64,000 nt of DNA from Rhizobium johnstonii 3841 (GTDB lineage Bacteria > Pseudomonadota > Alphaproteobacteria > Rhizobiales > Rhizobiaceae), in contig NC_008380.1 of assembly GCF_000009265.1 (NCBI RefSeq), positions 2,175,501-2,239,500 of the forward strand. The letters run 5' to 3'. Both the position numbers and the translations under genes were made by a program. Below the pieces are notes generated by a model. That model had not been told where the DNA came from. It made no database searches and worked only from the letters and a program-made list of their open reading frames with translations. Shown here one piece after another: positions 37,080 to 53,984 of the stretch (positions within the stretch are counted from its first letter, which is position 1; each line of letters starts with the position of its first letter).

Positions 37080-37285
37080 GCGCCAAGGCACGAAAAAATC
37101 ATCGTTTTCGCCGATTTTTTTGCTGCTGTGGAAAATCGCGGCGTTGGTTACGGCGGAGTGGAGAAAAATCGAGCCGGTGGGCTAGGATGGGCCGCGTTGC
37201 GCGAACCCGAAGGGTTCTCCTCAAGGGGACTCATAGGGCCGGCCAAGGTCGATCGAAACGGATGACGATGGCCTATCATCAACAG

Positions 37286-37360
37286 TGGTACGCCCTAGGG
37301 GAGTCGAACCCCTCTTTACAGAATGAGAATCTGTCGTCCTAACCGATAGACGAAGGGCGC
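37286..37360 (-). tRNA. tRNA-Glu (anticodon CUC), copy 2
   Basis: Same acceptor, D and T arms as the neighbouring tRNA-Glu genes. The anticodon stem is ACAGA/TCTGT with loop TTCTCAT, giving anticodon CTC, which reads GAG. CCA is encoded. A weak A/T-rich hairpin on this strand at about 37094-37122 could be its terminator. Confidence 0.97.
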
Positions 37361-37373
37361 AGGCAGCCTCGTT

Positions 37374-37402
37374 AAAATAGGAGCGCACGCCGGCTTCTGC
37401 AA
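37374..37402 (-). promoter_or_regulatory. Promoter of tRNA-Glu copy 2
   Basis: On the minus strand TTGCAG (37397-37402) and TATTTT (37374-37379) are separated by 17 bases, matching the promoter geometry of the other two tRNA-Glu genes. Confidence 0.6.
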
Positions 37403-37434
37403 GCGGAAGTGATGGCTTCTTTATGGAGAGAAAG

Positions 37435-37509
37435 TGGTACGCCCTAGGGGAGTCGAACCCCTCTTCCCAGAATGAAAATCTGGTGTCCTAACCGATAGAC
37501 GAAGGGCGC
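37435..37509 (-). tRNA. tRNA-Glu (anticodon UUC), copy 3
   Basis: Body identical to copy 1 (anticodon TTC). About 28 bases of 5' flank (cttccttcgtggtggcgccc and the -10) and the 3' flank (GAGAAAGTGG) also match copy 1, showing a recent duplication or gene conversion. Confidence 0.97.
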
Positions 37510-37527
37510 TTCCTTCGTGGTGGCGCC

Positions 37528-37556
37528 CTTATAGTCAGGCGTTTTGAATCCCGCAA
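37528..37556 (-). promoter_or_regulatory. Promoter of tRNA-Glu copy 3
   Basis: On the minus strand TTGCGG (37551-37556) and TATAAG (37528-37533) are 17 bases apart. Both hexamers are identical to those of copy 1, while the spacer differs. Confidence 0.7.
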
Positions 37557-37706
37557 GCGGAATTGCGGTTTTCTTTCAAAAAAATGACAGGAAATCCGAG
37601 TGCGTTCGGGAAGCCGATTATTGAAGCTGAATCAATAAGCTGCCGGTTGTTGCTTTAACGAGACGAGGCGGCGCTGCCCTAACGTAATGTGGAAATCGCG
37701 CGGCCG

Positions 37707-38774
37707 TCAGATCGCTCTTGCCGTCGTTATCGGTGGGCGCTTGCCGCCGCAGCCCCAGTTCCAATCGCGGGTTTTGCCAGTGTCGAGGTGAACCGAATCC
37801 GTGTGGCAGTAGGTGCCGACGCCGCCGCGGTCGGGCAACGAGCGGATATAGGCGGCGATATCCCATTTCGTCACGCCGTCGATCTGGATGTCGGCAGCCT
37901 CGCAGCTCTTGTGCATCGATTCGTCGGCGCCGCCGACGAGGCGGTTATGCTCTTCGTCACGGTAGCCGGAGGTGACGATAACCGGCCGGCCGAAATGACT
38001 TTCGACAATCTTGATCACTTTCAGCAGGTCGGGCTTGAAGCAGCCGACCTCGACCTTGTCGTTCTGGAGATGCAGCCCGTTCGGCGCGATGCGCGTCATG
38101 CCGGGCAGGGCCGCCTTGTGCAGCAGGCCCGAGAGGCTGCCGAGCAGGTTTTGCTTCGGCGCGCTGTAGAGCGCGTTCATCGTCGCGGTCGGAATGCTGC
38201 CCGTCGCCAGCGACGCCGTCTGCACGGGCGCAAGCTGCGTGCTGCTATTCTGCGATGATTGCTGCGGCAGCACCGGCTCCGCCGGCTGTTGGGGCACGGG
38301 CGGCTGGCTGTAGACGCTGCTTCGCGCAGGTGCTGCACCTTCCACCGGCACATAGGCTTGCGGCTGAATGACGGTGGACGTGCTGTTGTTCTGCGGCGCC
38401 GGCTGGTGATCGGAAAAGATGCTCATCGCCTGCGCGTTGATCCGGGTCGACTGCAGGACGAGCCCGCCGATATTGGCGGGCGCCGCCGTCGCCGAGCCGG
38501 CGGGGGGGACTGCTGCATTCGGATCTTGTGCCACCACCTGAGGCGCACCCTGGACGCCGGAGACGTTGACGAGCCGGGGATCGGTATAGACCGAACGTGG
38601 GGCAGGGCTTGCAGGCGCTGCCGTGGCCAGCTGCGGTGCTGCGGCCGGCACAGCCGGAACCACCGCCGCCGAATCCAGCGCCTTCTTGTCCGACGCGCAA
38701 CCGGACAGCACCAGCACCGAGGTGGCGATCAGCAAAGCGCCCGTCACGGGCATCCGCATCTGCATCTTACGCAA
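37707..38774 (-). CDS. M15-family D-Ala-D-Ala carboxypeptidase-like lipoprotein
   Basis: The 355-residue product has a lipoprotein signal (LLIATSVLVLSGC), with lipidated Cys near residue 26. A long Pro/Gln/Ala-rich linker follows, then a C-terminal peptidase M15 domain. Zinc-site motifs are visible: SMHKSCEAADIQI (His and Asp) and DSVHLDTGKTRDWNWG (second His). Such proteins trim peptidoglycan peptides from a membrane anchor. The domain is at normal length, and the linker suggests it must reach across the periplasm. Confidence 0.85.
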   Translation of the reverse strand: MRKMQMRMPVTGALLIATSVLVLSGCASDKKALDSAAVVPAVPAAAPQLATAAPASPAPRSVYTDPRLVNVSGVQGAPQVVAQDPNAAVPPAGSATAAPANIGGLVLQSTRINAQAMSIFSDHQPAPQNNSTSTVIQPQAYVPVEGAAPARSSVYSQPPVPQQPAEPVLPQQSSQNSSTQLAPVQTASLATGSIPTATMNALYSAPKQNLLGSLSGLLHKAALPGMTRIAPNGLHLQNDKVEVGCFKPDLLKVIKIVESHFGRPVIVTSGYRDEEHNRLVGGADESMHKSCEAADIQIDGVTKWDIAAYIRSLPDRGGVGTYCHTDSVHLDTGKTRDWNWGCGGKRPPITTARAI

Positions 38775-38900
38775 GCGACAGTCTCCAGTTGATGCGGAAA
38801 ATAAGCGAAAAACGCTTCTCTATCCGCTTCGAGTCGCCAGGAGATTGCCTGCGGCGTCGGATCGCGGCAAGCGCCGAGGCGCCGGCCGGACCCGAAATCG

Positions 38901-38938
38901 AAAAAGCCGCAAGCCTCGCAAAAGCCTTGCGGCAAAAA
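38901..38938 (-). terminator. Intrinsic terminator after gloA
   Basis: GCCGCAAG (38906-38913) pairs with CTTGCGGC (38926-38933). On the minus strand the stem is followed by a T run (the AAAAA at 38901-38905). A-tracts on both sides could make it work in both directions. It starts three bases after the gloA stop. Confidence 0.8.
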
Positions 38939-38941
38939 CCC

Positions 38942-39382
38942 TTACCAGGCGCCGGTATTGCCCATCGAGGCCCAGGGCTCAGTGGCCGGAAGCGGGTTGC
39001 CCTTCTGCAGGATTTCGATCGAGATGCCGTCGGGCGAGCGCACGAAGGCCATGTTCCCGTCGCGCGGCGGCCGGTTGATGGTGATGCCGTTGTCCATCAG
39101 ATTCTGGCAGGTGGCGTAAATATCGTCGACCTCATAGGCGAGGTGGCCGAAATTGCGACCTCCGCTATAATCTTCCGTGTCCCAATTGTAGGTAAGCTCG
39201 AGGCAGGGGGCTTTTTCGCTGCGCGCACGGTCGAGATCGTCGCGAGCAGCCAGGAAAACCAGGGTGAAGCGGCCCTTCTCGTTTTCGTGGCGGCGAATTT
39301 CCTCCAGTCCGAACAGCGTGGTGTAAAAGGCAAGCGACGTGTCCAGGTCTTTGACACGAACCATTGTATGTAGATAACGCAT
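38942..39382 (-). CDS. gloA: Lactoylglutathione lyase (glyoxalase I)
   Basis: Converts the methylglyoxal-glutathione hemithioacetal to S-lactoylglutathione. The 146-residue form begins at 39382 (MRYLHTMVRVKDLD) with GGAG upstream. Metal ligands are visible: His in YLHTMVRV, Glu in CLELTYNW, His in FGHLAYEVDDIY and Glu in ISIEILQKG. Glutathione-contact NRPPRDGNMAFVRSPDG is present. Ni/Co-type length, without the long loop of Zn enzymes. Confidence 0.96.
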   Translation of the reverse strand: MRYLHTMVRVKDLDTSLAFYTTLFGLEEIRRHENEKGRFTLVFLAARDDLDRARSEKAPCLELTYNWDTEDYSGGRNFGHLAYEVDDIYATCQNLMDNGITINRPPRDGNMAFVRSPDGISIEILQKGNPLPATEPWASMGNTGAW

Positions 39383-39577
39383 TCTATTTACTCCTTTATT
39401 GGGGCTGGCTTTTTTCGGCGAACCGAGGTCAGCTTCGGGCAAGTCAACTTTATAAAATGTGCACCTGGGAATAACCGAAAACTAGGACTTGCGCTTATCC
39501 GTTACCAAGATGTTAATCTTGATTTCAAGAATCAGTTAACCGTAACAGTGTGACGCGTATTCGAGGGGCTGGCGACA

Positions 39578-40156
39578 ATGGCTGACAGGATTTCATCGAA
39601 CGAATACTCCGACCTCGACGAGCTATCAGGAGAGGCGGTCGATCTTGTTGAAATCACCGGCGTCGTCAAGTGGTTCGATGTCGCCAAGGGTTTCGGCTTC
39701 ATCGTACCCGACAACGGCTTGCAGGATGTTCTCCTGCACGTGACCTGCCTGCGCCGCGACGGTTACCAGACGATCCTTGAGGGAACGCGCATCGTTGCCC
39801 TCATCCAGCGCCGCGAGCGCGGCTACCAGGCTTTCAAGATCCTCTCGATGGACCAGTCGACCGCGGTTCATCCCTCGCAGCTGCCGCCGGTACGCACCCA
39901 TGTGCAGGTTACCGCGACGAGCGGCCTCGAGCGTGCGCTGGTCAAGTGGTTCAACCGCACCAAGGGCTTCGGCTTCCTGACGCGCGGCGAGGGCACCGAA
40001 GATATCTTCGTGCATATGGAGACGCTCCGCCGCTTCGGCCTGACGGAGCTCCGCCCCGGCCAGGTGGTTCTCGTCCGCTTCGGCGACGGCGAAAAGGGCC
40101 TGATGGCCGCAGAGATCCATCCCGACGTTCCGAGCCCGGCAAGCCGGTCGCACTGA
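39578..40156 (+). CDS. Protein with two cold-shock domains
   Basis: The 192-residue protein carries two nucleic-acid-binding cold-shock domains. The first is [19 protein letters not shown] (about residues 28-46). The second is [19 protein letters not shown] (about 124-142), with the RNP2-like [13 protein letters not shown]. The domains are joined by a linker of about 30 residues. This duplicated form is common in rhizobia and is likely an RNA chaperone. A 195-base leader region separates it from the divergent gloA. The DUF192 gene follows two bases after its stop. Confidence 0.93.
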
Positions 40157-40158
40157 AC

Positions 40159-40647
40159 ATGCGCGGCCTAATCCTATTTGATGCCATCAGAAGCGCCTTA
40201 TTGGCGCTTTTTTTCATGGTTGCGCTGCCGGCCTTGGCTGACGAGGAGATGCGGTTCGACAAGGAGCCGCTGCTCATCCAGACCGCTGCGGGCAAGGTGC
40301 TGCATTTCACCGTCGAGATCGCCGCGACCCCGGATCAGCGCGCCCGCGGACTGATGTTTCGCAAGACGATGGCCGATGATGCCGGCATGATCTTCGATTT
40401 CGACCAGCCGCGGCGCGTCACCATGTGGATGGAAAACACCATCCTGCCGCTCGACATGCTTTTTGCCGACGACACCGGCACGATCCGCCACGTCAAGGAA
40501 AAGGCAGTGCCCTATTCGCGCGACATCATCGATTCGATGGTTGCGGTGAAATACGTCGTCGAACTCAATGCCGGCATCGTTGCCAAACTCGGAATCAAGC
40601 CCGGCGACAGGATCGTCAGCGCCACGACGACGAAGAAGGCGAAGTGA
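40159..40647 (+). CDS. DUF192 exported protein
   Basis: The 162-residue protein starts at ATG 40159, two bases after the cold-shock gene stop. It has a signal peptide (AIRSALLALFFMVALPALA), then the DUF192 domain with TPDQRARGLMFRKTM, GMIFDF, VTMWMENTILPLDMLFAD and VVELNAGIVAKLGIKPGDR. DUF192 is a small beta-barrel family of unknown function. An intrinsic terminator-like hairpin lies inside its signal peptide codons. An in-frame ATG at 40216 would remove most of the signal. Confidence 0.92.
   Translation: MRGLILFDAIRSALLALFFMVALPALADEEMRFDKEPLLIQTAAGKVLHFTVEIAATPDQRARGLMFRKTMADDAGMIFDFDQPRRVTMWMENTILPLDMLFADDTGTIRHVKEKAVPYSRDIIDSMVAVKYVVELNAGIVAKLGIKPGDRIVSATTTKKAK
40191..40214 (+). terminator. 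Terminator-like hairpin inside DUF192 signal peptide
   Basis: AAGCGCC (40191-40197) pairs perfectly with GGCGCTT (40203-40209) around a five-base loop and is followed directly by TTTTT. It would end transcripts of the cold-shock gene unless a translating ribosome from 40159 disrupts it. Confidence 0.75.
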
Positions 40648-40706
40648 CGGCGCATGCGAGCCGCGACGCGGCTGTCAAGGAATTCAACAATATCGGGATA
40701 TTTGAA

Positions 40707-41084: not shown

Positions 41085-41423
41085 GAGCTGCAAATCCACT
41101 GAATCGATTGAGCCGCAAACTAGTGCCGAGGGAAGGCAGCGGCAATCAGGTTGTGATCACAAGGTGAGACAAGCGGAAATATTGCGAAATCCGGCCGGCA
41201 ATCACCGGATTTGCAGGGAGGCGGTGTCGGCCGTCATGCGAACGGAGTCGGCAGCCGTGTCGCGCACCGCCTTTTTTCTTGAAAAAGCGGGGATTCGCGG
41301 CTAAGCAAAATTCATCTCTTGGCATTATCCTCAGCGATGATGCCAAGGCCCGAGAACGGGCCGGCAACGGGATTGAGACCATGAAAGGCGGGCGCTGCCC
41401 GCATAGTCGGAGACGCTGCAGTC

Positions 41424-41729
41424 ATGTCTGCCAAGATCTATCGTCCAGCCAAGACCGCCATGCAGTCCGGCAAGGCCAAGACCCATCTCTGGGTGCTTGA
41501 ATACGATCAGGAGTCGGCGCGCAAGATCGATCCGATCATGGGCTACACTTCCTCGGGTGATATGCGCCAGCAGGTGAAGCTCACCTTCGAAACGCAGGAA
41601 CTCGCCGAAGCCTACGCCCAGCGCAACGGCATCGAATACCGCGTCATCGCACCGAAGGATCCGGTCCGCCAAGTCGTCGCCTATCCGGACAATTTCCGCT
41701 ATACCCGCACGCAGCCCTGGACGCATTGA
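41424..41729 (+). CDS. ETC complex I subunit, NDUFS4-like family
   Basis: The 101-residue protein matches the ETC complex I subunit family related to mitochondrial NDUFS4. It has AKIYRPAKTAMQSGKAKT, HLWVLEYDQES, PIMGYTSSGDMRQQVKLTFE, ELAEAYAQRNGIEY and the C-terminal YPDNFRYTRTQPWTH. With the NDUFA12-like gene at 21518 it is a second mitochondrial-type accessory subunit of complex I outside the nuo operon. It lies just before tRNA-Arg. Confidence 0.94.
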   Translation: MSAKIYRPAKTAMQSGKAKTHLWVLEYDQESARKIDPIMGYTSSGDMRQQVKLTFETQELAEAYAQRNGIEYRVIAPKDPVRQVVAYPDNFRYTRTQPWTH

Positions 41730-41786
41730 GATTTCTGGTCCAGATATGCCGCATCCGGTCGCGCTCGTGAGACGCGGCCGCCGGAC

Positions 41787-41863
<77 letters not shown>

Positions 41864-42226
41864 CTCAACTAATTGATTTTAAATCTGTTTTTGAATCATC
41901 CGATTGTTTTCGCGGGATTGGTTTGTCCCTGCGCTGGCTGATCTGGGCATTTTGCGGCTTATGGTTTGTCCATATTTGGTTTTCACTCGTACTGCGTCAC
42001 AACCGTCTGCCTAGATCGTTACGCTTTCGACCTCGGTATCTGTTCGGATGAATCCGTATTTTCATCGGCGGGGAGGGGCGGGGCAGGCCGATAATCGCAA
42101 GCTTCGGTATTCTCCGGACAAAATAGGACCAGCACAGCGCAAACGGATGGGTCGAGCAGTGACAACGCTGTCGACTCCCAGCTAAAGAATTACTGGCAGA
42201 GGCTATGAAGAGATTCGGAGGGGCTT
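41864..42226. other. Gap between tRNA-Arg and the STAND gene
   Basis: About 360 bases of lower GC DNA. It holds no integrase and no second copy of the tRNA 3' end. A TTG-initiated frame of 42 codons (from 41923) and a 14-codon ATG frame (42205) that runs into the next start are visible, but neither has support. The promoter of the large gene should be here; no clear hexamers. Confidence 0.5.
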
Positions 42227-45200
42227 TTGTTTGGCGGCGGCGTTTCTGACAAATTCGGGAATATATACGAATCCCTTTGGGCGGTCCGTCAACTGTTGGA
42301 TGTGCTCTACGGTCGGAAAAGAGCGATCCGCCTTGAGGGCATCAGCAAGGAGTTCAAGGGATTTGAGTTCGCAATCGACGAGGGCGACTTCAAGTCTTGG
42401 CATCAGACGAAGATAAATGCTCAGAGCCAGAACTGGACCATTCGCGCGTTGGAACGGGAAGGGGTTTTGGACGCATTTGCAGCGCGTCTTTCTGCAACAA
42501 CGCGCGACCGCTGCGTGTTCGTTTCGCAGAGTCCTGCCGTCGATCTCGCCGATCTGTCGAGCAAGGCCTCGTACGCAAGCGACTTCGCCGATTTCGATCG
42601 AGGCCTGCTACCGACCCCCAGAGAAAAGTTCGTCAGTTTCTATTCCACCGTGGAGGTGGAGCCGGCGGTCGCTTTCGACTGGCTTCGCCGCTGCGAATTT
42701 CGAACCTTACCCCAAGACGAGATCATGGCGACGGTCGAGGACTTCGCCAGTCTACTCTTCGAGAATAAAGCGGATGCAGCGTATCCTGCATTGCGGGCCT
42801 ACTTGGAAGGCAGGCTCAATCGCGACCTCACCACTGAAACCGTCCGAGCGGAAATCCCTTCCGATACCGAGCTGCGGATCAAAGAATGGTCCCTGAAGCC
42901 AACCCTTCGTTCGAAACTGCAAGACGAAACCGAAGGCTATCTGAACTCTTTCACACCGTTCGGCGCATCAGGACACATCCTCGAACGTTCGCAGGCTGAC
43001 GAGATTATCTCACTACTCAAGAACCCATCCGGGCCTCGTGTGGTCATGGTTAGCGGTGTCGCCGGCTGCGGCAAATCGGGAGTCGTCCGCGAGGTATTGA
43101 AAGACCTCGATGATCGTGAGGTTGTGCACCTGGCATTCCGGGTTGATCAACATTTGGAATGCAAGTCTTCCTTGGATTTCGGCAAGGCGCTCCTCGGTTC
43201 AGAAGAGAGTCCGGTAACTGTCCTGAAGGGGCTGTCCCCGACGCAGACGGCTGTGCTCGTTGTGGATCAGCTCGATGCCATCAGCGAGATATCCGGCCGC
43301 AACGGAACCTCCAAGAACGCGGTTCTCCGCATGATCGACGAAGCACGCCGATATGCGACGGTGCGCGTCGTTTTAGTTTGCCGCACGTTCGACATAGAGA
43401 ACGACGAACGCATCAAGCTGCTCAAGCAGAGCAGCGACTTCAATCAAGTGAATATTCCACTGTTGGAGTGGGAGGACGATGTTGCTCCGTTGCTCGCCAA
43501 ACTTCAAGTCAACGCCGAAGCGCTAGACACGACGCAACAGGAATTACTCCGCCTGCCACTCAATCTCGCCGTTTTCGCCGAGATCGGCGGGGCTGGCGAC
43601 ACGCAGTTCGCCAGCCGCAACGACCTCTTCGAAAAACTGCTTAGGAAAAAGCAGAGTTCCATCGTGGAAAACCGCGCGCCGCCGGGCTGGGCGCTAATGG
43701 CTCCGTTGACGCGACTTAGCGAATGGATGAGCTCGCGCCAGAAACTGGACGCACCTGCCAGCGTTCTCGACGACTTTCATCGAGGCGTTGATATCCTCGC
43801 ATCCGAACACCTCATTGTGAGATCACGAAATACGGTCAGTTTCTTCCACGAAAGTTTTTTCGACTATGTGTTTGCGCGTTCATTCGCTGCGGGAAAACAA
43901 AGCGTTGTCGATCTGCTGACTTCCACCGAACAGCACCTGTTTAGGCGCACCCAAGTGCGCCAGATTTTGGAAAGTCTACGACAGAGTGATCACTCTCGTT
44001 ACCTGTGCGAATTGAAGGAAGTTTTGAATTCATCGGACGTGCGGTTTCACATAAAGATCGCACTCGCAAAATGGTTAGCGGCTTTGGGTTCTCCTACCAT
44101 CTCCGAGCGCAATATCGTCCTCGCGCTTGACGATCACAGTCAGCCTTTTTCCATTGTTGTGCGAACCGCAATCCAGGGGACGGCTGGCTGGTTCGATATA
44201 CTCGTAGAAAACGGATGGTTGGCTCAACAGCTAGAAAGCCCGGTGGAGCAACGAAGACGTGTACTCTTGTGGTGGCTGGAGAGTGTTGCGGGCGATCGGC
44301 CGGAGCGCGTTGCGGCTATCCTCGACGCTTGGTGGCGCGGCGACGATAAGAGGGCCACGGATTTGTTTCAGTGGTTTGGTTACATCCGGCGACAGAAGAC
44401 TGACACCGCCCTTATTGAGCTTTGCACCCGCTTGATGGCTTCGCAGCCATCAATCCTATTTGCAGGGAATGATCTCCGCCGTGAGCTGCTCATAGCGACG
44501 TGGATAGCGAGCGAAAACGTGGACGGCTCGTCATCGATTTTGAAAACCTATTTCAACGCGTGGTTCGAGCATCACCCAGACGACCACCCGTTCGCGCGCG
44601 ATGCAATCAAGGAACTCGACCTGCATTCTCTGTCCGAGCTTGGCAAGAAATCACCAAGGGCATTGCTGGAGGGGACAGTCGACGCTTTGGCACGCACCTT
44701 TCAAATCATCGAGGAGAAAACGATCTCGGGTGCTGTCGACTACACCTTTCATTATAGGCCCTTGGGCGAAGTAACTACAGGATCAGATCGCTTTCTGCAG
44801 TTCATCCGGAGCGCGCTCCAACGAGTCGCACTGGAGAACCCCGACGTTGCAGGAGGCCTCCTCGATCGCATTGATCCTCGGAAGAATGTGGCGGCGATCC
44901 ACCTGCACCTTGAAACCGTTGCCGCGAATCCAAGCGCACTTTCGATTTATTTCCTCGCCGTTCTTGAGTTTCCGGAGGTTTTCGAGGCCGGATGGGAAGG
45001 AGCGCGGTGGAAGTCTTTCGCAGACGCAGCCCGAGGAACATTACCGCATCTGGCAGAGGTCGACCGGTGCGCTGTCGAGGACGTCGTCCTCACGCATTGG
45101 CCAGAGATCGCCTACGCCAAGGAGTTCGCAGCGGATTCCACGGCAGAAGGTCGACGTTACTGTCTGGGAAACCTGGCGCGGTCCGGTTACGAGCAGTTTT

Positions 45201-46780
45201 GCATCTTGCACACGATCGGTCCGGAAACCTTGGGGCGCGCAGCTCGGAGCCGCCTCGCTGAACTCGGGAGGAAGTTCCAAGAGGAGGATGTCGGGCAGCC
45301 AAACCAGTTTCAGATGACCTTGGTCCGCTCTCCAATTTCGGACAGCAGAGCCAAGCATATGAGTGACGAGAACTGGCTCGAGGCGATTGAAGAATATCAC
45401 AGCGATAGTAGACGGGATCGCGGAGATCGACGGACCGGAGGAGCCAGACAGCTAGCTTTGGTTTTAAACAGCGTCACCAAAGCGCATCCAGTTCGCTTCG
45501 CTCGTTTACTTCCCCGAATTCCGAGCAATGCCAATCATGTCTATGCCGGCCAATTGCTTCAGGGGCTGGTGGAGGCCGTGAGCGTCGACTTGGACACATT
45601 ACGCGTAGCAATACTGAATGCACATGAAAGGGTTGGGCGGCCTTTCGGCGAGATCATATGTCGTGCTTTCCACAATTACCCTGACCTATGCGAGGATGAG
45701 CCGTGCTGGACCGCACTGCTGTGGTATATTCAATTCGGTCACGCCACCGACAGCCGGGAGCTCAGCGATTCGTTTGCTGGGCAGGAGCTCGTGACGATCG
45801 AGTACCTCGTCGAGAGAGGAAGCAAGCTACACATCCGAGGGATCAACAGCGTACGTGGATGGGCCTTGGAAGCTCTCACCCAGGTTTTGTGGCATATTCC
45901 GCAGCGTCGTTCCCAGGCGTGGGAGCTGTTGGAAAGTCGCGTTGGCACAGAGACGGACCTGAGCGTTCGATGCTGCCTGACAGGTCCGCTGACACCGATG
46001 TTCAATGTGGACAAGATACGTTGTGCGTGTCTGCTCGAACGGCTGGTAGAGCAAAGCCTGGTTCCCGATAATGCCTTGTCACCCCTGATCACGCGTCCTG
46101 CTACGGCCTTGCTGCCGTATTTCATTCATCAGGTTCCCGATACCGGAAATCGTCTGCTAAACCGAATGGCCGTCTCTGAAGACGAGCGAACTCGTCTTGT
46201 GGCGGCGTGGCATGTCATGCGCGCGAGTTACCATGATTCGACCTACGTAGATTGGGCCGAGAGCTTGGAACGATCTCATCTGGATGCGAGACGGCTCTCC
46301 GCGGATATCGCCTCGCAGGCAATCGCAGAGGCGACGCTAAGAGCGCGATCGGTCGACAAGGTTCGGCGCTACTTCGATGACGAAGACGATGGCGTCCGAA
46401 AGAAAGCGGCTCAGACGTTCCGACACATCCCACGCGATCAGTTCGATCTTTTGACCGATTTGGCCAAACACTTCCTGGATAGCAGAGCCTTCTATGAAGA
46501 TTCCTTCGCCTTTTTACATCTACTGGAGGAAGTGCAGGGCAATGTGGCTGATCTGGTTATCGCAAGCGCGGAGAAGCTACTAGCCGATGCAACCACGTCG
46601 GCCGACGGTCCCGAAAAACATGACATGGCCTGGCACCAACTTCACGAACTCATCAACCTTGAATACGCTAATTCGGAGCAGGAACCTGAGCTCAGAAAGC
46701 GGTTGCTCGACGTGGTCGATCGAGTGCTGTTGTTGGAACTGCGTGGTGCGGAACAGATTCTGAAAAAACACGAACGTTGA
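42227..46780 (+). CDS. PD-(D/E)xK-like nuclease plus STAND-type NTPase, Avs-like
   Basis: The 1,517-residue product starts at TTG 42227, five bases after GGAGG (42217-42221). The N-terminal domain (about 1-200) has the pattern Glu37 (RLEG), Glu47 (GFEF) and Gln60-Thr-Lys62 (WHQTK), resembling Cap4/Mrr-type PD-(D/E)xK nucleases. An NTPase follows with Walker A GVAGCGKSG (Lys283) and Walker B LVVDQLDAI (Asp347). Roughly 900 C-terminal residues are helical and repeat-like. Nuclease + STAND NTPase + long sensor is the layout of Avs anti-phage proteins that detect viral proteins and cut DNA. No closer family assignment is possible by eye. Codon use is weaker than in the core genes. Confidence 0.8.
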   Translation: MFGGGVSDKFGNIYESLWAVRQLLDVLYGRKRAIRLEGISKEFKGFEFAIDEGDFKSWHQTKINAQSQNWTIRALEREGVLDAFAARLSATTRDRCVFVSQSPAVDLADLSSKASYASDFADFDRGLLPTPREKFVSFYSTVEVEPAVAFDWLRRCEFRTLPQDEIMATVEDFASLLFENKADAAYPALRAYLEGRLNRDLTTETVRAEIPSDTELRIKEWSLKPTLRSKLQDETEGYLNSFTPFGASGHILERSQADEIISLLKNPSGPRVVMVSGVAGCGKSGVVREVLKDLDDREVVHLAFRVDQHLECKSSLDFGKALLGSEESPVTVLKGLSPTQTAVLVVDQLDAISEISGRNGTSKNAVLRMIDEARRYATVRVVLVCRTFDIENDERIKLLKQSSDFNQVNIPLLEWEDDVAPLLAKLQVNAEALDTTQQELLRLPLNLAVFAEIGGAGDTQFASRNDLFEKLLRKKQSSIVENRAPPGWALMAPLTRLSEWMSSRQKLDAPASVLDDFHRGVDILASEHLIVRSRNTVSFFHESFFDYVFARSFAAGKQSVVDLLTSTEQHLFRRTQVRQILESLRQSDHSRYLCELKEVLNSSDVRFHIKIALAKWLAALGSPTISERNIVLALDDHSQPFSIVVRTAIQGTAGWFDILVENGWLAQQLESPVEQRRRVLLWWLESVAGDRPERVAAILDAWWRGDDKRATDLFQWFGYIRRQKTDTALIELCTRLMASQPSILFAGNDLRRELLIATWIASENVDGSSSILKTYFNAWFEHHPDDHPFARDAIKELDLHSLSELGKKSPRALLEGTVDALARTFQIIEEKTISGAVDYTFHYRPLGEVTTGSDRFLQFIRSALQRVALENPDVAGGLLDRIDPRKNVAAIHLHLETVAANPSALSIYFLAVLEFPEVFEAGWEGARWKSFADAARGTLPHLAEVDRCAVEDVVLTHWPEIAYAKEFAADSTAEGRRYCLGNLARSGYEQFCILHTIGPETLGRAARSRLAELGRKFQEEDVGQPNQFQMTLVRSPISDSRAKHMSDENWLEAIEEYHSDSRRDRGDRRTGGARQLALVLNSVTKAHPVRFARLLPRIPSNANHVYAGQLLQGLVEAVSVDLDTLRVAILNAHERVGRPFGEIICRAFHNYPDLCEDEPCWTALLWYIQFGHATDSRELSDSFAGQELVTIEYLVERGSKLHIRGINSVRGWALEALTQVLWHIPQRRSQAWELLESRVGTETDLSVRCCLTGPLTPMFNVDKIRCACLLERLVEQSLVPDNALSPLITRPATALLPYFIHQVPDTGNRLLNRMAVSEDERTRLVAAWHVMRASYHDSTYVDWAESLERSHLDARRLSADIASQAIAEATLRARSVDKVRRYFDDEDDGVRKKAAQTFRHIPRDQFDLLTDLAKHFLDSRAFYEDSFAFLHLLEEVQGNVADLVIASAEKLLADATTSADGPEKHDMAWHQLHELINLEYANSEQEPELRKRLLDVVDRVLLLELRGAEQILKKHER

Positions 46781-47090
46781 GTAAAGGTTGGTTGGCCGTT
46801 CCGCCTCGCCCACGCATCGGTTCCTGGAGAGTTAGGCGTCTGGTGAGTTGGGCGGCCTGTCGTTCGCTTTGGTGTCATGCCTCAACGGGCCGCGATGGCG
46901 TGTTGTACTATCGATGCTCGTCCGGGGACGCATTTGTGTATCTGATTTCAATTACGTGAGTACGCGCCGCGGGTGCGGCATCTCGAACGCTCATGATTCG
47001 ACAGGGGAAACGGGTGAAGAAGCTCCTTTTGGTCAAATTCGGGTGGTCCGATCATTAGCGCGACTTGTCCGCCCGCCCGCTCTCCCACGC
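46781..47090. other. Gap after the STAND gene
   Basis: About 310 bases between convergent genes. An open frame on the plus strand crosses it and runs on against two recognised minus-strand genes, so it is not real. No terminator hairpin with a T run is convincing. Confidence 0.5.
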
Positions 47091-47645
47091 TTAAACGTCA
47101 AGAAAGCCGAGTGCCCGCGCCTTGGAGAGTGCGGAGCTGTCGTCCGCCGGCAACCACCAACTCTTGTCGGTCAGAGACCAGCGCGCCCCGATGCCCTTAG
47201 CTTGGTCCTTACGCGCGTATGGGACCGAAAGGGGGACTCGTATCGTATCCGGAGCAGATTCCATGTGCGGCGTTTTGCGGCCTCCCTTGCCACGTCTTCG
47301 GTCGAGGGCCGCCAAGGCTACGTCGATTGCGGGATCGTCGCGCGGTCGCAACTTAGCCTGCTCCGCCCATGGCGGTGCTTCAATTCTTCGCCAGGTCTTG
47401 TAGGTACCGGGGACCGGGACCATCGCAAGGCCTTCCTTCAGACCGCCCTCAAGGCCGTACACATCCATAAGGACCGATGGATTGCCGAAGTAAGGAGCAT
47501 GTTTGGTAAACATACCAGCGCGGATGATGCGTGCCAGGGTCCCGCCCCAGGTGGTCCGGCGTATCCAGAACCCCGGCCCACCGTTGGCAACGAGCATTTC
47601 AAAGACATTCTGGCCATCGATGTCCCTCCAATCATCCTCGTGCAT
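47091..47645 (-). CDS. DUF5710-like C-terminal domain protein
   Basis: The 184-residue product ends in a short domain, LSVPYARKDQAKGIGARWS followed by KSWWLPADD. This matches the DUF5710 pattern (VPY..K..AK..GA.W....W..P) found at the ends of plasmid and phage primases and antirestriction-type proteins. The N-terminal 100 residues (GFWIRRTTWGGTLARI, VYGLEGGL) are unrecognised. A ribosome-binding site AGAAGG precedes the ATG. It lies downstream of the RelA/SpoT gene on the same strand, 165 bases away. Confidence 0.7.
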   Translation of the reverse strand: MHEDDWRDIDGQNVFEMLVANGGPGFWIRRTTWGGTLARIIRAGMFTKHAPYFGNPSVLMDVYGLEGGLKEGLAMVPVPGTYKTWRRIEAPPWAEQAKLRPRDDPAIDVALAALDRRRGKGGRKTPHMESAPDTIRVPLSVPYARKDQAKGIGARWSLTDKSWWLPADDSSALSKARALGFLDV

Positions 47646-47810
47646 GCCTTAAACCTTCTTTTTTCAAATCCAGCTGCATTTGAAGGTCCGGCCCGCGCCT
47701 GGGTGCACCCAGGTGAGCTCGAATTCAAACAAGTTCGCTTACTTTCACCTGTGCCACAAAGGCGGTGCTGCGGTGGCGCGCTTCGAGCCGCCGCTATCGT
47801 CTCAGGAGTT

Positions 47811-48995
47811 TCAGCTTGGATACCAGCGTGTATAGTGCCGGTTCAGATTGCGCACATCCCCTTGGGGCTGCGGTTTCGGAATTTTCACGCGCTCTTGCTG
47901 AATCAGAGTGAATTCCAGAGCATCCTGACCTTGAACAATCCTTCTCAGGTTGTTCAAGAAGACACCCACGTCGCCGAAATAATTCGGGTATGTTCGCACG
48001 AGGTTGTTAACGCGTGAGACTTCGACGGTCACGACTTTCGAACGTGTGAGGCCATCCTCGATCTGCCGTTCGATGATTGCGAGGCGAGCCTGAAGCTGCA
48101 ATATTTCCGAGTATCGCTGGACTGTGACGGTGTGGTCATCGTTGTTGTAAACGATTAAGAAGAACTTCCCATCACCGTAGAGGTATGTCTCGGCATAGGT
48201 GGTCGCTGTGCGAATATTCTCCAAAGTGGAAATCGCGTCCAGCTTCGTTTCTAAAGCTTTGATTTCGGCAATTCGAAGCGACCGGTCGGGCACGCCGGGC
48301 GCAGCCGGGCAACCCTCGACATAGGCGAACTCCCCCGACATAAGCTTGAAGAGACGGAGCCAGTCGGCATTGCCGTGATGATGTTTCAAATCCTCGCCGT
48401 TGAACAGGCTTACCGCTTCGACTGCGGTCGCCCATGAGTGTTGGAGGCGTGTGCGAATTTGGAACTCTACCCGGCGACCGGCAAAGACCGATTGTTCCTT
48501 CTTCCGAGGGCAAAACTCGAAAGAGATATGATGGCTACGATACCCGTCGTCTTTCGGCGCATCGATATAAGGCCATTGCCGCCGGTCATGATGAGGAAAT
48601 CCTTCATTGATCTCAGCAAGCAAGGATCGAACACCCTTGATATCATCGAGGATGGCGCGACAGCCTCCGATATCCTGCATGCGGTCGAGGTGAATGTCGG
48701 ACTCGCGGAGCTTCCGTCGAATGCTGGGCATGCGCTTCGGTCGAGCGGCCATATCACCCTTGATGCCAATTTTGCGCATGCGATATGCGGCAGAGAGATA
48801 GACGGAGCGCATAGGGAAGAAATGGCTGTCGCGCCACGAATTCGCGACGGCAAAAACATGATGCGCATCCCGCCAGTCAACATCGGAATATAGGCTCAGT
48901 TCGTCTTTCAGCCTTTTCCCGGCCGCTCGTACTTCCTGTATGCTGAATTGAAGTTCGGGATAAATCGGCATCACGAATCGGGTCCAAGTGTCCAC
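47811..48995 (-). CDS. Orphan RelA/SpoT-domain alarmone synthetase-like protein
   Basis: The 394-residue protein has a (p)ppGpp synthetase fold at about residues 80-195: RPKRMPSIRRKLRES (85-99), MQDIGGCRAI (106-115, Asp108), PKDDGYRSHH (147-156, Tyr152) and VEFQIRTRLQHSWAT (176-190). There is no HD hydrolase domain and no TGS/ACT domains, so it is not the housekeeping Rel/SpoT. It has an 80-residue N-terminal and a 200-residue C-terminal extension. Small synthetases of this fold include toxins (toxSAS) and the phage sensor CapRel. Location beside a STAND nuclease suggests defence, as inference. Confidence 0.87.
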   Translation of the reverse strand: MDTWTRFVMPIYPELQFSIQEVRAAGKRLKDELSLYSDVDWRDAHHVFAVANSWRDSHFFPMRSVYLSAAYRMRKIGIKGDMAARPKRMPSIRRKLRESDIHLDRMQDIGGCRAILDDIKGVRSLLAEINEGFPHHDRRQWPYIDAPKDDGYRSHHISFEFCPRKKEQSVFAGRRVEFQIRTRLQHSWATAVEAVSLFNGEDLKHHHGNADWLRLFKLMSGEFAYVEGCPAAPGVPDRSLRIAEIKALETKLDAISTLENIRTATTYAETYLYGDGKFFLIVYNNDDHTVTVQRYSEILQLQARLAIIERQIEDGLTRSKVVTVEVSRVNNLVRTYPNYFGDVGVFLNNLRRIVQGQDALEFTLIQQERVKIPKPQPQGDVRNLNRHYTRWYPS

Positions 48996-49349
48996 TCGGA
49001 CATTTTAGCATTTCGCAATGGAGCAATCATCAACCAAAGAGCGCAATGCACAGATCGACACGCGCAAACTAAGCTACTCCCATCAACCGCGTGACCGTTT
49101 TCCGGATGCCGCTCGGCGAGCTCTTCCATCGTCTCGGAGGTCGGGCGAGCCAAAACAGCTCTGGCATCACATTGGTACACAAAACGCCAATTCGGCAGAC
49201 GGAAATCCCAAGATTCAGGCTGTTGGGCAAGGCGTGGCAGGAATCCCGATATCAACAGCTGCTGTTTAATTCAGTCGAAGTGGAAATACTTGCATCAACC
49301 ATTGGTAGTTTAGTATATTCTAATGGAGACAAGGTTTGGGGGATTCCAC
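48996..49349. other. Gap between RelA/SpoT and membrane protein genes
   Basis: About 350 bases between divergent genes. It contains only short frames without family resemblance. The last 60 bases are A/T-rich (TAGTATATTC) and probably hold the promoter of the gene at 49350. Confidence 0.5.
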
Positions 49350-50309
49350 ATGAGCGGAGAAACCGTTGCGAGTATCGTCGTCGGTGAGAAAGACTACACT
49401 GGATTGCCGATAACAGCCGTCTATAGCAAAGTCAGCAACGTTTACGCCGTTTACTGCAATCCCGAGCGTGTCATGGTTCAATTTGCCGATGATGCGGGAC
49501 TTGGCAGCGAACAACGTCTGGCCCTAGCCCATCTTGCGCCCCTGCGGGGAGAAATAAACGGTATCATTGACGGCTGGCGCAAAAGCCAATTGCCTTGGCC
49601 GTGGACCCATACATCTAAGGCGAAACGGTATGACCGTCGCACTGCCGACGCAATGGTGGTCGCTCTGCAAGGCGACCAAATGTCTGCTGAGGCGTTGCTT
49701 AGGGCTGTGAAGGTCGATCTTGTTGAAGAGCGCACGTCGATTGGGCGCTCGAGTTACATCATCTATGCGACGATTTGCTCCATCCTCATCTTCTCCATCT
49801 TTGCCTTGCTGAGCAGTGGGGAAAGTGTCGATGACAGCACGGCCTTCGGCGTACTCACGGCGGAAGACAGTTTGTGGCTGGCGACTGGTATCGGCTGTCT
49901 TGGCGCACTGTTTTCAATTGCAATTGGAATCCGGAGCCGCACGATCCATACCGATCTCAGAACTCGAGATAATATTGTTGATGCCACCCTTAGAATTGTA
50001 ATTGGCGCGATCTCGGCTGTTGTGTTGTTTGCCCTGTTTAAGAGCAAACTCATATCGTTTGCGCTCGGCGAGAACAAATTTGATATCGCCGCAAAGGGAC
50101 CAGAGATGGTGCACTTTGCATTTATCGTTGCGTTTTTTGCTGGCTTTTCGGAGCGCCTGGTCGGCGATTATCTCGGCACGACCGTACTCAAGGGATTTGG
50201 AAATCAGGCCGGCCTAGTGCCGATGGCACCGCTTTCAACCGCGACAATCGCAAACCAGCAGAAGGAGGCAAATGAGAAAAGCCCGCTTGGCAGGCCGCCG
50301 CATCTATGA
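49350..50309 (+). CDS. Four-helix membrane protein of unknown family
   Basis: ATG 49350 (MSGETVASIV) has GGGGGA six bases upstream; ATG 49323 has no such site. The 319-residue product has a soluble N-terminal part of about 140 residues. Four membrane helices follow: YIIYATICSILIFSIFALLS, LWLATGIGCLGALFSIAIGI, VIGAISAVVLFALF, and FAFIVAFFAGFSERLVGDYL. The pattern resembles a cytosolic domain with a membrane module, as in effector-type defence proteins, but I cannot name a family. It stands alone in the accessory region. Confidence 0.75.
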   Translation: MSGETVASIVVGEKDYTGLPITAVYSKVSNVYAVYCNPERVMVQFADDAGLGSEQRLALAHLAPLRGEINGIIDGWRKSQLPWPWTHTSKAKRYDRRTADAMVVALQGDQMSAEALLRAVKVDLVEERTSIGRSSYIIYATICSILIFSIFALLSSGESVDDSTAFGVLTAEDSLWLATGIGCLGALFSIAIGIRSRTIHTDLRTRDNIVDATLRIVIGAISAVVLFALFKSKLISFALGENKFDIAAKGPEMVHFAFIVAFFAGFSERLVGDYLGTTVLKGFGNQAGLVPMAPLSTATIANQQKEANEKSPLGRPPHL

Positions 50310-51333
50310 CTTTGAGCTTTGCATCCCCGAGCCAACCGATCACGCCCTCCTGCTGCGATTTAATGTATCACAATGTTAGGCCGAGCTGATTGACGCTTGA
50401 ACGCTTCTATCAGCCTAACCTTCGGGTTGCGGCCGCGAACGGACGCTGACCTGTATCGTGCCTAGCGGAAGAGCCTACGAGTTCAGAGGCGCAAGTCTGG
50501 TGGCATTTGCTACATAATTCTGCAATTTAGGACAACCGGTACACGTCACCAGAAACCTGGACTGAAGACTCCCCGAGCCCGTTCCGTGGGCTTTGTTCCT
50601 ATGTTGAAATATCGAATTTCAGATCATTCCATTTGTTCGTCAAGCAGCCTTGCGCATATCAGTAATTTTCTAAAATTCCGACAAAACATCTAGATAGAAT
50701 CGGACGAGATGCCGACAATCCGAGCGTTGCTAAACAGGCGGGCTATATATCCAGTTGCCAAAACAAGATCGAGATTGTCGGTTCCGTAATCTTGTTTGAT
50801 TTCCTTGATTTCTATGTAAAATTGCAGCCTCATTTTTCCGTTCACGGAGCGTTGCTTCGGGAGTTACGACCACAAGAGATCGGTCATCATTCGGTCTTAT
50901 TCGGCAGCCAGCGAGGGTGAAGCCCACCAAACCCAAATCCATGGTTTTGGAATTACTAGCGTCCTGATGTAGAATGGCTGTACGCGTCCAGGATAACGGC
51001 GAACGCCAATGTGTAGGCGGGCTGAGACGATAAAAACGTCAACTTGGAAATTCTTCTGCCTTATTGCCATCTCCATAATCACTTGGTCTATCCTCAGTAG
51101 ACTCAAAGACATACCTAATAAAATCACTTCAGAGAGAGCATCGTCATTGACACAGGTTGCAAAACTGCATAGTATCTCTCTTTAAGAGTAGTTCGTTATT
51201 TGGCGCAGAAGCGCCTTTTATGGTCGTGCGACGTCTGTTCCCGGAGTCCTTCTTGCCGTTTTACACCCGGGGAAGGAAATCGTCATGACCGTGCCCTAAT
51301 CTCGCCCTGCCGACGCAAGCCGTGGATCGCGCG
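50310..51333. other. One-kilobase gap, lower GC
   Basis: No supported gene. Two overlapping minus-strand frames (50730-50942 and 50897-51127) could be pieces of one decayed gene, but I recognise no family in them. No repeat, tRNA or clear promoter is visible. The base composition is lower in GC than both the core and the following operon. Confidence 0.5.
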
Positions 51334-51627
51334 ATGGCCATCGACTTCGAGTTGCACCTTCAGGAAGGTTTCGACGGCGAGACCGTCGTGATCGAGGTGG
51401 ACGGTGTGGAGATTGCGCGGGTCGAGGCCCGCACCCGCATGCAGACCGGTCTTGCCCATATCGAGAAACTGCGGCTGAAGCCGGGTCAAACGGTGGTCGT
51501 GCGCCTGCCAGACCTGAGCCTGTCCGCCGAGCACCGAGTCGTCGCCGGCCGGCCTTTCATCCAAGTGACATTGAAAAACGGCGCGCTGCGCATCGAGGCC
51601 ACCGAGACCACGCCCGGATATCTGTAG
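51334..51627 (+). CDS. Small predicted beta protein, metzincin operon partner
   Basis: ATG 51334 (MAIDFELHLQEGFDGE) gives 97 residues; GTG 51322 is an alternative. The alternating pattern (TVVIEVDGVEIARVEART, PGQTVVVRLPDL, FIQVTLKNGALRIEATE) predicts a beta sandwich. No signal peptide or membrane helix. The metzincin-like gene begins 65 bases later on the same strand with the same high-GC codon style, so the two form one unit. Family unknown. Confidence 0.7.
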   Translation: MAIDFELHLQEGFDGETVVIEVDGVEIARVEARTRMQTGLAHIEKLRLKPGQTVVVRLPDLSLSAEHRVVAGRPFIQVTLKNGALRIEATETTPGYL

Positions 51628-51692
51628 GAGCAGCCTGCTTGCCTCGGTCGTTCAGACCGGCCCGGCCCACACTTTTGGAGGAGAGCTTCACC

Positions 51693-53984
51693 ATGGCCAA
51701 GAAACCGACTCCCGACGACACGCCCGAGCCCGCGGTGATGATTCCGGATGACCAGCATCCCGACTACGCCGATGGCATGATCAGCGATCCGGACGACCTG
51801 GCCGCGATGGCCGCCATAGACGAGTTCCCGCTGCAGCCAAATCCTGGACCGTTCCCCCTGCCGCTGCCGCCAACACCGCTCCCGGGACCGCTGGTGCCGC
51901 TGCCGCTGAACATCTGCGGGCCGGTGAGCGGTCGCTACGCGCGGGTGCTGGTGCCGCCGCCGGGACAGATCGCGCCACTGCCGCTGCTGCCGGGCTTTCC
52001 GGTGCCGCCGACCCAGCCGCCGACACTGTTTCCGCCCACTTTCATCACGGTGCGTGTGGATGTCGACCGGTTCTTCCCCCAGCGCCGCATCTCGGTCGAG
52101 GCGCGCCGCCTGTTCCCGAACCAAACCTCGCACCTGATCGCCGAGGTGACGTCGGACGCCTGCATCGGCTATTTCAAGCGCCGCATCGCTGCGCGGATCA
52201 CTTATAGGGACGGTCCAGCGGCACTGATCCCCGGCGACAACCTGATCTTCGAGGCCAAGCGGGCTGGAGGCCGCGGCTACGGCACCTACACGCTGACGCT
52301 ACGCAATGGCGGAACGACCGTCGCGACGCACAGCCTCGCGTTCCAGTCGATCTACTTCGATGCGGTGGAGTTCGAGGTGGACCGCGTTGCAGACGCGGCA
52401 GCGCCTACCACGACGCACGCCACCCAGAGCCATCCCAACCGCCCGGCTGACCTGCCTAACGAGACGATCTCGATGGCGACGGTTTATCAGCGCGCGGGCT
52501 TCGAGGTGACGATGTCACCCAACTCGTCCCTCGTCCCCATCACAGGGGCAGGGTCCAACAGCACGTGGTCCGACGGCGAGATGCACAACGCTATGGTGGC
52601 CTTCTGGTCGCGCTTCGCGGACAAGCCGCTATGGGCGATGTGGGTGCTGTTCGCGCGCCAACACGACCAGGGCTTCTCGCTCGGCGGGATAATGTTCGAC
52701 GACATCGGCCCGAACCACCGACAGGGCACAGCCATCTTCACCGACAGCTTCATCCAGACCGTGCCCGCGGGCGATCCAAACCCCGCGGCATGGCGTAACC
52801 GAATGGTGTTCTGGACGGCGATTCACGAGATGGGCCACGCTTTCAATCTCGCGCACAGCTGGCAGAAGGCGCTTGGCAACCCGTGGATTCCGCTCGCCAA
52901 CGAGCCGGAGGCTCGCAGCTTTATGAACTACCCGTTCAACGTTGCAGGTGGCCAGGCGAGCTTCTTCTCGGACTTTCGGTTCCGCTTCAGCGACCAGGAA
53001 CTGATCTTCATGCGCCATGCGCCGCGGCGCTTCGTACAGATGGGCAACTCCGATTGGTTCGTGAACCACGCGTTTGAGGACACGACGGCGCTCGATTTCC
53101 CACGCAACTGGAGGCTGGAGATTCGGCCGAACCGCGCCGTCAACGAGTATGCGTTCATGGAGCCGGTGAAACTGGAGCTGAAGCTAACCAACGCGTCGAG
53201 CGGACCAAAAGAGGTGGAGGCCGACATGCTGGACGACGGCAAGCACATTGCGGTCTATGTCGGGCGCGAAGGCGGGCTAACGAAGCGTTGGAGCCCGTTT
53301 GTGACGCGTTGCCACGAGATGCACCATGACACCATCGCACCGGGCGCGTCGATCTATGGCGCGCACATGATCGGAATCTCGACCAACGGGTGGCTGATCG
53401 ACGAGCCGGGCTTCTATACGTTGCAGGCGGCGGTCGACATGAACGGGGAGATCGTCATCTCAAACGTCCTGCGCATCTACGTCGCGCCGCCCGCCTCGGA
53501 CGCGGAGAGCAAGCTGGCACCGGACTACTTCACTGAGGACGTGGCCCGTGTCATCGCCTTCGAAGGAGCGCCGGAGCTGGCGAAGGCCACCGACACGCTG
53601 CGGGACGTTGTGAAGCGCTGCCCTAACAACCCGGCCGCGACCCACGCGGCGGTGGCCGTCTCCTCACCGATGCTCCGTAACTACAAGCTGCTGGCGGCCG
53701 GTCCCGATGCGACGCTGACAGTCAAAGGCACGGCGGCCAAAGTCGCAGAGGCGGCGAAGATGCAGATAGAGACGCTGCTCAAGACACCAGACGCGGCAGC
53801 GGATACCATGGGCCACATCGACTACTTCGCCGACCTGGCCCGGCTGGCCGAGGCGCTGGAGAAGTCAGGCGACAAAAAGGAGGCGATTAAGGTGCTGAAG
53901 ACCTCCATCGCCACCATGAACAAGCGCGGTGTGATCGCGACAGTCGTCAAAGAAACCGAGACAAAGCTCGCGAACATGGGCTGA
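51693..53984 (+). CDS. Metzincin-like zinc metalloprotease, 763 residues
   Basis: ATG 51693 (MAKKPTPDD) is preceded by GGAGGAG. The protease core has the extended zinc motif HEMGHAFNLAH (His378, Glu379, His382, His388) and a Met-turn-like SFMNYPF (Met411), the metzincin hallmark. Order: an acidic N terminus, a Pro-rich stretch (about residues 50-115), a beta-like domain (about 120-235), protease (about 250-460), a second beta-like domain (about 465-610) and a helical C terminus. No Sec signal is visible, so it is either cytoplasmic or exported by another route. Very GC-rich codon use distinguishes it from its AT-richer flanks. Confidence 0.85.
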   Translation: MAKKPTPDDTPEPAVMIPDDQHPDYADGMISDPDDLAAMAAIDEFPLQPNPGPFPLPLPPTPLPGPLVPLPLNICGPVSGRYARVLVPPPGQIAPLPLLPGFPVPPTQPPTLFPPTFITVRVDVDRFFPQRRISVEARRLFPNQTSHLIAEVTSDACIGYFKRRIAARITYRDGPAALIPGDNLIFEAKRAGGRGYGTYTLTLRNGGTTVATHSLAFQSIYFDAVEFEVDRVADAAAPTTTHATQSHPNRPADLPNETISMATVYQRAGFEVTMSPNSSLVPITGAGSNSTWSDGEMHNAMVAFWSRFADKPLWAMWVLFARQHDQGFSLGGIMFDDIGPNHRQGTAIFTDSFIQTVPAGDPNPAAWRNRMVFWTAIHEMGHAFNLAHSWQKALGNPWIPLANEPEARSFMNYPFNVAGGQASFFSDFRFRFSDQELIFMRHAPRRFVQMGNSDWFVNHAFEDTTALDFPRNWRLEIRPNRAVNEYAFMEPVKLELKLTNASSGPKEVEADMLDDGKHIAVYVGREGGLTKRWSPFVTRCHEMHHDTIAPGASIYGAHMIGISTNGWLIDEPGFYTLQAAVDMNGEIVISNVLRIYVAPPASDAESKLAPDYFTEDVARVIAFEGAPELAKATDTLRDVVKRCPNNPAATHAAVAVSSPMLRNYKLLAAGPDATLTVKGTAAKVAEAAKMQIETLLKTPDAAADTMGHIDYFADLARLAEALEKSGDKKEAIKVLKTSIATMNKRGVIATVVKETETKLANMG

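Follow-up and report, generated by a model that had tools for sequence, protein, structure and literature searches.

An Avs-like candidate immune protein with a predicted nuclease domain, a NACHT-type switch and a HEAT/ARM-type solenoid, encoded beside tRNA-Arg in Rhizobium johnstonii 3841

The window analysed here is a 64-kb stretch of the genome of Rhizobium johnstonii 3841 (contig NC_008380.1), and the gene under study encodes a 1517-aa protein whose parts are listed in Table 1. The reading frame is intact and runs from a TTG start to a TGA stop. The start proposed in an earlier note on this DNA, together with its good Shine-Dalgarno sequence, holds, since GGAGGGG is a plausible ribosome-binding motif and the six codons between the preceding in-frame stop and the TTG include neither ATG nor GTG. 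Among ORFs of at least 80 aa it is, as had been claimed, the first gene after tRNA-Arg. The same note saw DNA of a different style here; GC in 1-kb windows is 0.55-0.58 over the gene and 0.56 at 41-42 kb, lower than the 0.57-0.66 at 36-41 kb, although the difference is modest. A promoter scan found none, where 2.0 would be expected by chance. The protein matches no PADLOC family and no NCBIfam family at E<=1, has weak matches only in PHROGs (best E 0.026), and finds one match in its own genome. The frame is not a chance one, since 76 of 110 candidate stretches from a genome collection of species representatives encode relatives that are 24 to 73% identical in their best segment.

Table 1. Features at the locus, in positions of the window
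Feature	Position	Strand	Basis
tRNA-Arg(TCT), left edge of strain-specific DNA	41787..41863	+	ARAGORN; blastn match ends in same-genus stretches
GGAGGGG, likely Shine-Dalgarno, 3 bases before the TTG start	42217..42223	+	read from sequence
Predicted nuclease-STAND NTPase-HEAT/ARM protein, 1517 aa, whole ORF including stop	42227..46780	+	ORF list; homologues; conservation
Predicted PD-(D/E)xK nuclease domain, residues 1-215 (E37, E47, Q60-x-K62)	42227..42871	+	conservation; model; VIA; Pfam in relatives
Predicted NACHT/STAND NTPase with winged-helix part, residues 244-560	42956..43906	+	Pfam below cut-offs; VIA
Walker A GVAGCGKS, residues 277-284	43055..43078	+	G280, G282, K283 each 62/62
Walker B AVLVVDQLDA, residues 342-351 (D347-Q348-x-D350)	43250..43279	+	D347 61/62; Q348, D350 62/62
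FFHESFFDY, winged-helix histidine motif, residues 539-547	43841..43867	+	F539 to D546 each 62/62
Helical middle region, residues 561-1027 (561-700 well conserved, 701-1000 variable)	43907..45307	+	model; per-segment identity
HEAT/ARM-type solenoid, presumed sensor, residues 1028-1517	45308..46777	+	VIA; Pfam HEAT in relatives
RelA/SpoT-domain gene, 394 aa, separate from the system, candidate defence protein	47811..48995	-	Pfam RelA_SpoT 3.5e-16; PADLOC PDC-S33 2.6e-102

The gene lies in strain-specific DNA that starts at tRNA-Arg. Twelve same-genus stretches were compared by blastn, counting matches of 100 bases or more, and in all 12 the match that spans the NDUS4-tRNA block runs out 0-23 bases past the 3' end of the tRNA. 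Positions 46785-50400 are partially matched in 4 of the 58 other genomes of the genus (best 569 bases at 82%, in genome G055), and 51300-54000 has just two matches in other genus genomes, of 31 and 71 bases. The two best matches to 46785-50400, the one in G055 and a second in G036 (68%, 517 bases), fall on a gene for a DUF5710 protein (47091-47645, minus strand, E 7e-10). Farther downstream, 56136-60916 carries a gene for an impB/mucB-type polymerase and, after it, one of the DNA polymerase III alpha type, whose 1086-aa product we take to be DnaE2-like, and looks like a mutagenesis cassette. The 12-stretch comparison also covered window positions 37285-40650 and 41400-41868; in 4 of the 12 relatives (L114, L117, L119 and L120) the 37285-40650 block stands reversed, directly after tRNA-Arg, which points to an inversion in one lineage. 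Insertions at this site are indicated by three other genomes, G026, G011 and G044, in which tRNA-Arg, whole or as its 3' part, recurs 5, 38 and 58 kb downstream. For the copy in the window, an integrated element at the tRNA is unsupported: a second copy of the last 24 bases of the tRNA, allowing up to 2 mismatches, is absent from the genome, and none of the 29 matches to the tyrosine-type Phage_integrase model in the genome lies in the window.

The RelA/SpoT-domain protein encoded on the opposite strand, which also matches phrog_4773 (E 4.2e-66), is a second candidate defence protein in the same strain-specific DNA, perhaps an alarmone-synthetase toxin. Co-conservation of this neighbour with the 1517-aa family was considered and rejected: PDC-S33 finds matches in 21 of 23 genomes with a homologue, yet 11 of 14 control genomes have them as well, and with matched frames of 704-965 aa they look like common RelA/SpoT enzymes.

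Conservation was counted in an alignment of 62 full-length, single-frame homologues; the other 14 of the 76 loci, which were truncated, split or shorter matches, were left out. The earlier note had placed a PD-(D/E)xK-like site at Glu37, Glu47 and Gln60-x-Lys62, and three of these residues are near-invariant (E37 in 61/62; K62 in 62/62; E47 in 57/62, replaced by D in the remaining five), whereas position 60 is weaker, with Q in 48 homologues and S in 14. In the model the strands are predicted at residues 33-36, 48-51, 56-62 and 95-100, and E37, E47 and K62 sit on or beside the first three. The same part of the protein aligns by VIA with chain 8zue_A of a Hachiman complex (residues 10-221; Z 14.0, 3.6 A, 191 residues) and with chain 9c1m_G of a HerA-DUF complex (residues 4-215; Z 13.8, 3.3 A, 171 residues); the structure listing names the complexes only, and the matched chains are probably HamA and DUF4297. 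The earlier note would have been refuted by a non-nuclease fold in residues 1-200; the fold comparison instead gave chains of nuclease-containing defence complexes for residues 4-221. Support from sequence is thin: the Pfam model Cap4_nuclease is matched by 3 of 30 family members, the best of them over model positions 2-175 of 200 at E 4.7e-4, below the cut-off, and residues 1-233 of the 1517-aa protein match no Pfam model at E<=10, Cap4_nuclease included. From the modelled fold and the kept site residues, our analysis suggests that residues 1-215 form a nuclease of the Cap4/DUF4297 type, for which DNA cleavage is predicted. A study of the DUF4297-HerA nuclease dimer gives the SeAvs3 and EcCap4 nucleases as its top Dali matches, and describes the formation of nuclease dimers upon SeAvs3 tetramerisation (PMC11291478).

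The part that follows is, by motifs and predicted fold, a STAND NTPase of the NACHT type, as residues 244-560 combine a P-loop, Walker A and B motifs, an arginine and a histidine with a predicted NACHT fold. The Walker residues Lys283 and Asp347 named in the earlier note are kept in 62 and 61 of the 62 homologues, R386 and H541, which we take to be the sensor arginine and the winged-helix histidine, are invariant (62/62 each), and P444 is near-invariant. The Pfam models AAA_16, nSTAND1, nSTAND_NTPase5 and NACHT all match under their curated cut-offs. By VIA, residues 224-691 resemble NLRP9 (Z 24.1), NLRC4 (Z 23.9) and NOD2 (Z 21.9), with NLRP3 within Z about 20-24.

About 900 helical repeat-like residues had been expected to make up the rest of the protein, and the model of residues 560-1517 (pLDDT 89.4), nearly all helix, contains about 950. 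The earlier note could put no name to the repeats; they can in fact be named as HEAT/ARM type from fold matches and from Pfam HEAT matches in relatives. From about residue 1028 on, the model resembles the PP2A scaffold A subunit (6ef4; VIA Z 16.9, 6.0 A, 424 residues) and importin alpha chains (Z about 14-16), where the fold lists are filled by single folds and the PP2A and importin matches are compatible with TPR or other repeats. Among the 30 family members Pfam HEAT matches 15 and HEAT_2 matches 8, and no TPR model occurs among the 25 of 27 families listed. Compared with four close homologues, the protein is 66-73% identical in residues 1-130 and 244-700, 62% in 131-243 and 50-60% across the eight segments that make up 701-1517; in the family as a whole, 1001-1120 is a better-kept piece of the C-terminal part. 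This faster evolution of the C-terminal part is what one would expect of a sensor, and we infer from it that the part may do the sensing. In accounts of STAND proteins, C-terminal repeats usually sense the signal (PMC8195603, PMC7159879).

The relatives, one of them a full-length homologue with 73% identity in its best segment, come from Pseudomonadota, Actinomycetota, Cyanobacteriota, Chloroflexota, Planctomycetota and other phyla. Their occurrence is sporadic, with a match in 2 of 100 relatives of the strain (its own genome and, partially, G011) and, class-wide at E<=1e-100, in 2 of 289 genomes (its own and G131). In a tree built by a quick method the sequences mostly cluster by phylum (10 changes against a minimum of 8), with a few mixed clades and with two Mesorhizobium copies set apart; a tree that mostly follows the phyla suggests that the family is old and not solely mobile. 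Matches occur in twelve plasmid records, and in three of these they cover 80% or more of the query. At the settings used no relative turned up in phage records or in viral contigs, the latter scanned with two short patterns only. In seven relatives the coding sequence is divided between frames (L010, L017, L025, L027, L028, L052 and L077). On a plasmid of Nostoc MS1 (L141:4794-10619), a distant relative lies in two parts flanking an IS630 transposase gene.

Relatives exchange the N-terminal effector and keep the NTPase switch. Among plasmid matches found by tblastn are related NTPases annotated, for example, as SEFIR or caspase proteins, and Pfam identifies SEFIR in a protein from a Nostoc C057 plasmid (1.2e-13), caspase in one from a Tolypothrix plasmid (1.6e-12) and PNP_UDP_1 in one from G011 (6e-12). 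The nuclease profile is absent from all three at E<=10, and the NTPase profile is found in each (E 9e-49, 2.5e-38 and 9e-42, respectively, against a set of only a few sequences). The sensor profile, searched against the same small set, is found in two of the three, the SEFIR protein (E 9e-41) and the PNP protein (E 2e-40). In the caspase protein the C-terminal half is not found with the sensor-only profile at E<=10, and a shared sensor is therefore claimed for the SEFIR and PNP proteins only; the full family profile reaches position 1489 in the caspase protein. The G011 protein, from the same genus as the window genome, is a 1752-aa frame (L150:3215-8470, minus strand) with a nucleoside phosphorylase, the NTPase and the sensor, a sister system. 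Modularity as such is already known, bacterial STAND proteins being described as combining varied N-terminal effectors (PMC8195603, PMC7159879); our literature search found no description of a NACHT and HEAT/ARM chassis with exchangeable effectors.

The surroundings of the homologues are suggestive of enrichment in candidate defence genes. One hundred flanking ORFs matched 70 PADLOC families at E<=1e-10, against 16 families for a control of 100 ORFs that surround RelA genes, taken from 14 of these genomes; since families and not proteins are counted, and one protein may match many methyltransferase models, the difference is no more than suggestive. Among the 25 of the 70 families listed are type II restriction-methylation, reverse transcriptase, Cas1, PDC-S71 (2e-120), PDC-M30B and PDC-M41B. 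The control families include MADS-type models (mad3 at 3.3e-57) as well as helicase and NYN models, and MADS-type matches in the flanks carry no weight, because they occur in both sets and are stronger in the control. On a Sinorhizobium numidicum plasmid (L137:8866-11721), multiubiquitin, ThiF and DUF6527 genes lie upstream of the homologue, with an integrase gene between. A homologue on a Rhizobium phaseoli plasmid has sugar-transport and metabolic genes as neighbours. Restriction to core contexts, which would have spoken against the earlier note, is not what is seen: homologues occur on plasmids, in strain-specific DNA and in flanks with candidate defence genes.

The domain order, the conservation of the active sites, the predicted folds, the patchy distribution and the exchange of effectors form the basis of our proposal that the 1517-aa protein is very probably a single-gene, NLR-like immune sensor-nuclease that works like Avs3 and Avs4 and acts by abortive infection. 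The resting protein would be a closed monomer. An invader's protein, most likely one from a phage, would bind the HEAT/ARM solenoid, upon which the NACHT-type switch (K283, D347, R386 and H541) would exchange its nucleotide and the sensor-nuclease would form an oligomer. The oligomer may then pair the nuclease domains into active dimers; these would cleave double-stranded DNA, and the infection would be halted with loss of the cell. Several observations weigh against the proposal: the protein matches no PADLOC or NCBIfam model at E<=1, and its residues 1-233 no Pfam model at E<=10; the Pfam NTPase matches stay under their cut-offs; the Rhizobium phaseoli homologue has sugar-transport and metabolic neighbours; the tree largely tracks the phyla; and neither a tyrosine-integrase match nor a repeat of the tRNA marks the island. 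The nucleases of Avs1-4 have been described to kill by cutting phage and host DNA upon recognising terminase, portal or another phage protein (PMC12931631); by analogy, the same mode of killing may apply to the 1517-aa protein.

The same machine could be directed at another enemy, such as plasmids or other mobile DNA, or could guard a host process that becomes disturbed, in place of sensing a phage protein. The STAND chassis and the effectors of the family suit either target, and competition between plasmids is plausible for the copies carried on plasmid records; that no relative was met in phage records or viral contigs at the settings used concerns carriage and not target. Against this stand Avs3 and Avs4, which are the nearest among the fold matches whose trigger is known and whose structure titles describe them in complex with phage terminase and portal, and the candidate anti-phage genes in the flanks of homologues, and we consider the alternative unlikely, though it keeps some weight. 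It is improbable that the protein is a strict member of Avs1-4 recognising terminase or portal: Avs3 and Avs4 rank first in Foldseek, and 9 of 30 family members match the PADLOC Avs2 model at E<=0.01 (best 9.5e-8), but the protein itself matches no PADLOC model at E<=1, the family profile finds 9n00 at 6.8e-72 and no chain named Avs among the best 60 of its 95 PDB matches (last E 0.22), and the fold matches of the solenoid are HEAT/ARM proteins.

A role as an ATPase in DNA repair or regulation, for instance as a STAND regulator resembling MalT that uses its N-terminal domain to bind DNA without cutting it, would fit the appearance in the VIA fold list of 8bob, a maltose-system structure (Z 16.3) whose chain is presumably MalT. 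The kept active-site residues, the sporadic distribution and the caspase and SEFIR domains that occupy the same position in relatives make this reading very improbable. Decay of the gene has even less to commend it; several relatives are split over frames and the Nostoc relative lies on both sides of a transposase gene, but the copy in the window is a single open frame with all the named residues, and one of its full-length homologues reaches 73% identity in the best segment.

We return, then, to the sensor-nuclease reading. The family is separate and uncharacterised, and shares its chassis with 9n00 and, partly or wholly, with the SEFIR, caspase and phosphorylase proteins. It is possible, at slightly less than even confidence, that it stands next to Avs1-5 as an independent sensor chassis, in which a NACHT switch and a HEAT/ARM solenoid with a new class of trigger accept nuclease, SEFIR, caspase or nucleoside-phosphorylase effectors as plug-in modules. 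The two members within one genus, in the window genome and in G011, have different effectors, so the same kind of trigger may have different outcomes: if this is true, a like trigger would lead to DNA cutting in one strain and to nucleotide depletion in another. Whether or not it is, the bacterial NLR-like receptors gain a family that is phylogenetically wide yet sporadic, with a presumed sensor of HEAT/ARM type and effectors that can be exchanged, and the identity of its trigger would directly test the convergence of different receptor families on a few phage proteins.

Among known systems, animal NLRs share the NACHT and winged-helix fold (NLRC4, NLRP9 and NOD2, Z 22-24). NLRC4, NLRP9 and NOD2 carry leucine-rich repeats and other N-terminal domains, whereas the 1517-aa protein has the HEAT/ARM solenoid and the predicted nuclease in those places. 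The nuclease subunits of HerA-DUF4297 and Hachiman resemble residues 4-221 in fold (Z about 14) but partner a separate motor protein, while here the nuclease domain is fused to a STAND switch. The PADLOC candidate PDC-M54A is matched by 20 of 30 family members (best 4e-21); it is a candidate only, and the 1517-aa protein itself does not match it at E<=1. No paper naming PDC-M54A or PDC-M54 was found in a literature search.

The Avs-like layout claimed in the earlier note is borne out by conservation, by the predicted structure and by the order of the Foldseek hits. For the model of residues 1-760, Avs3 (8dgc, E 9e-14) and Avs4 (8dgf, E 2.5e-12) come first, and EfAvs5 (9jap) is found at 4.8e-7; the TM of 0.25-0.30 and rmsd of 21-22 A to Avs3 and Avs4 indicate that the domains match singly and that their relative arrangement differs, and with a pTM of 0.68-0.69 for both models (1-760 and 560-1517) the overall domain arrangement in the models is not reliable. 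Like Avs1-4, the protein has an N-terminal effector, a central STAND NTPase and a C-terminal helical part in one chain, and like Avs3 and Avs4 it has a predicted nuclease in the first place and a large helical part in the last. It differs from Avs3 and Avs4 in its sequence-profile matches, those listed being without Avs, and in a solenoid that resembles HEAT/ARM scaffolds. In Avs1-4 the C-terminal sensor is TPR-like. The description of the 1517-aa protein as Avs-like is thus supported, and membership of Avs1-4 is not established by sequence.

The closest solved relative by sequence is 9n00 (also 9n01 and 9yix), an 'AAA family ATPase' of 1523 aa, for whose structure a literature search found no paper. 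The N-terminal fragment of 9n00 matches PADLOC LmuA (1.1e-7) and PDC-M54A (6.1e-8). The relationship is distant, with a single-sequence phmmer E of 1.1e-14, but length and order are similar, and the family profile aligns in two stretches (profile 10-654 and 883-1492), so that homology extends over the NTPase and the C-terminal half. With 9n00 as the nearest solved relative, structure-guided work on the 1517-aa protein becomes possible.
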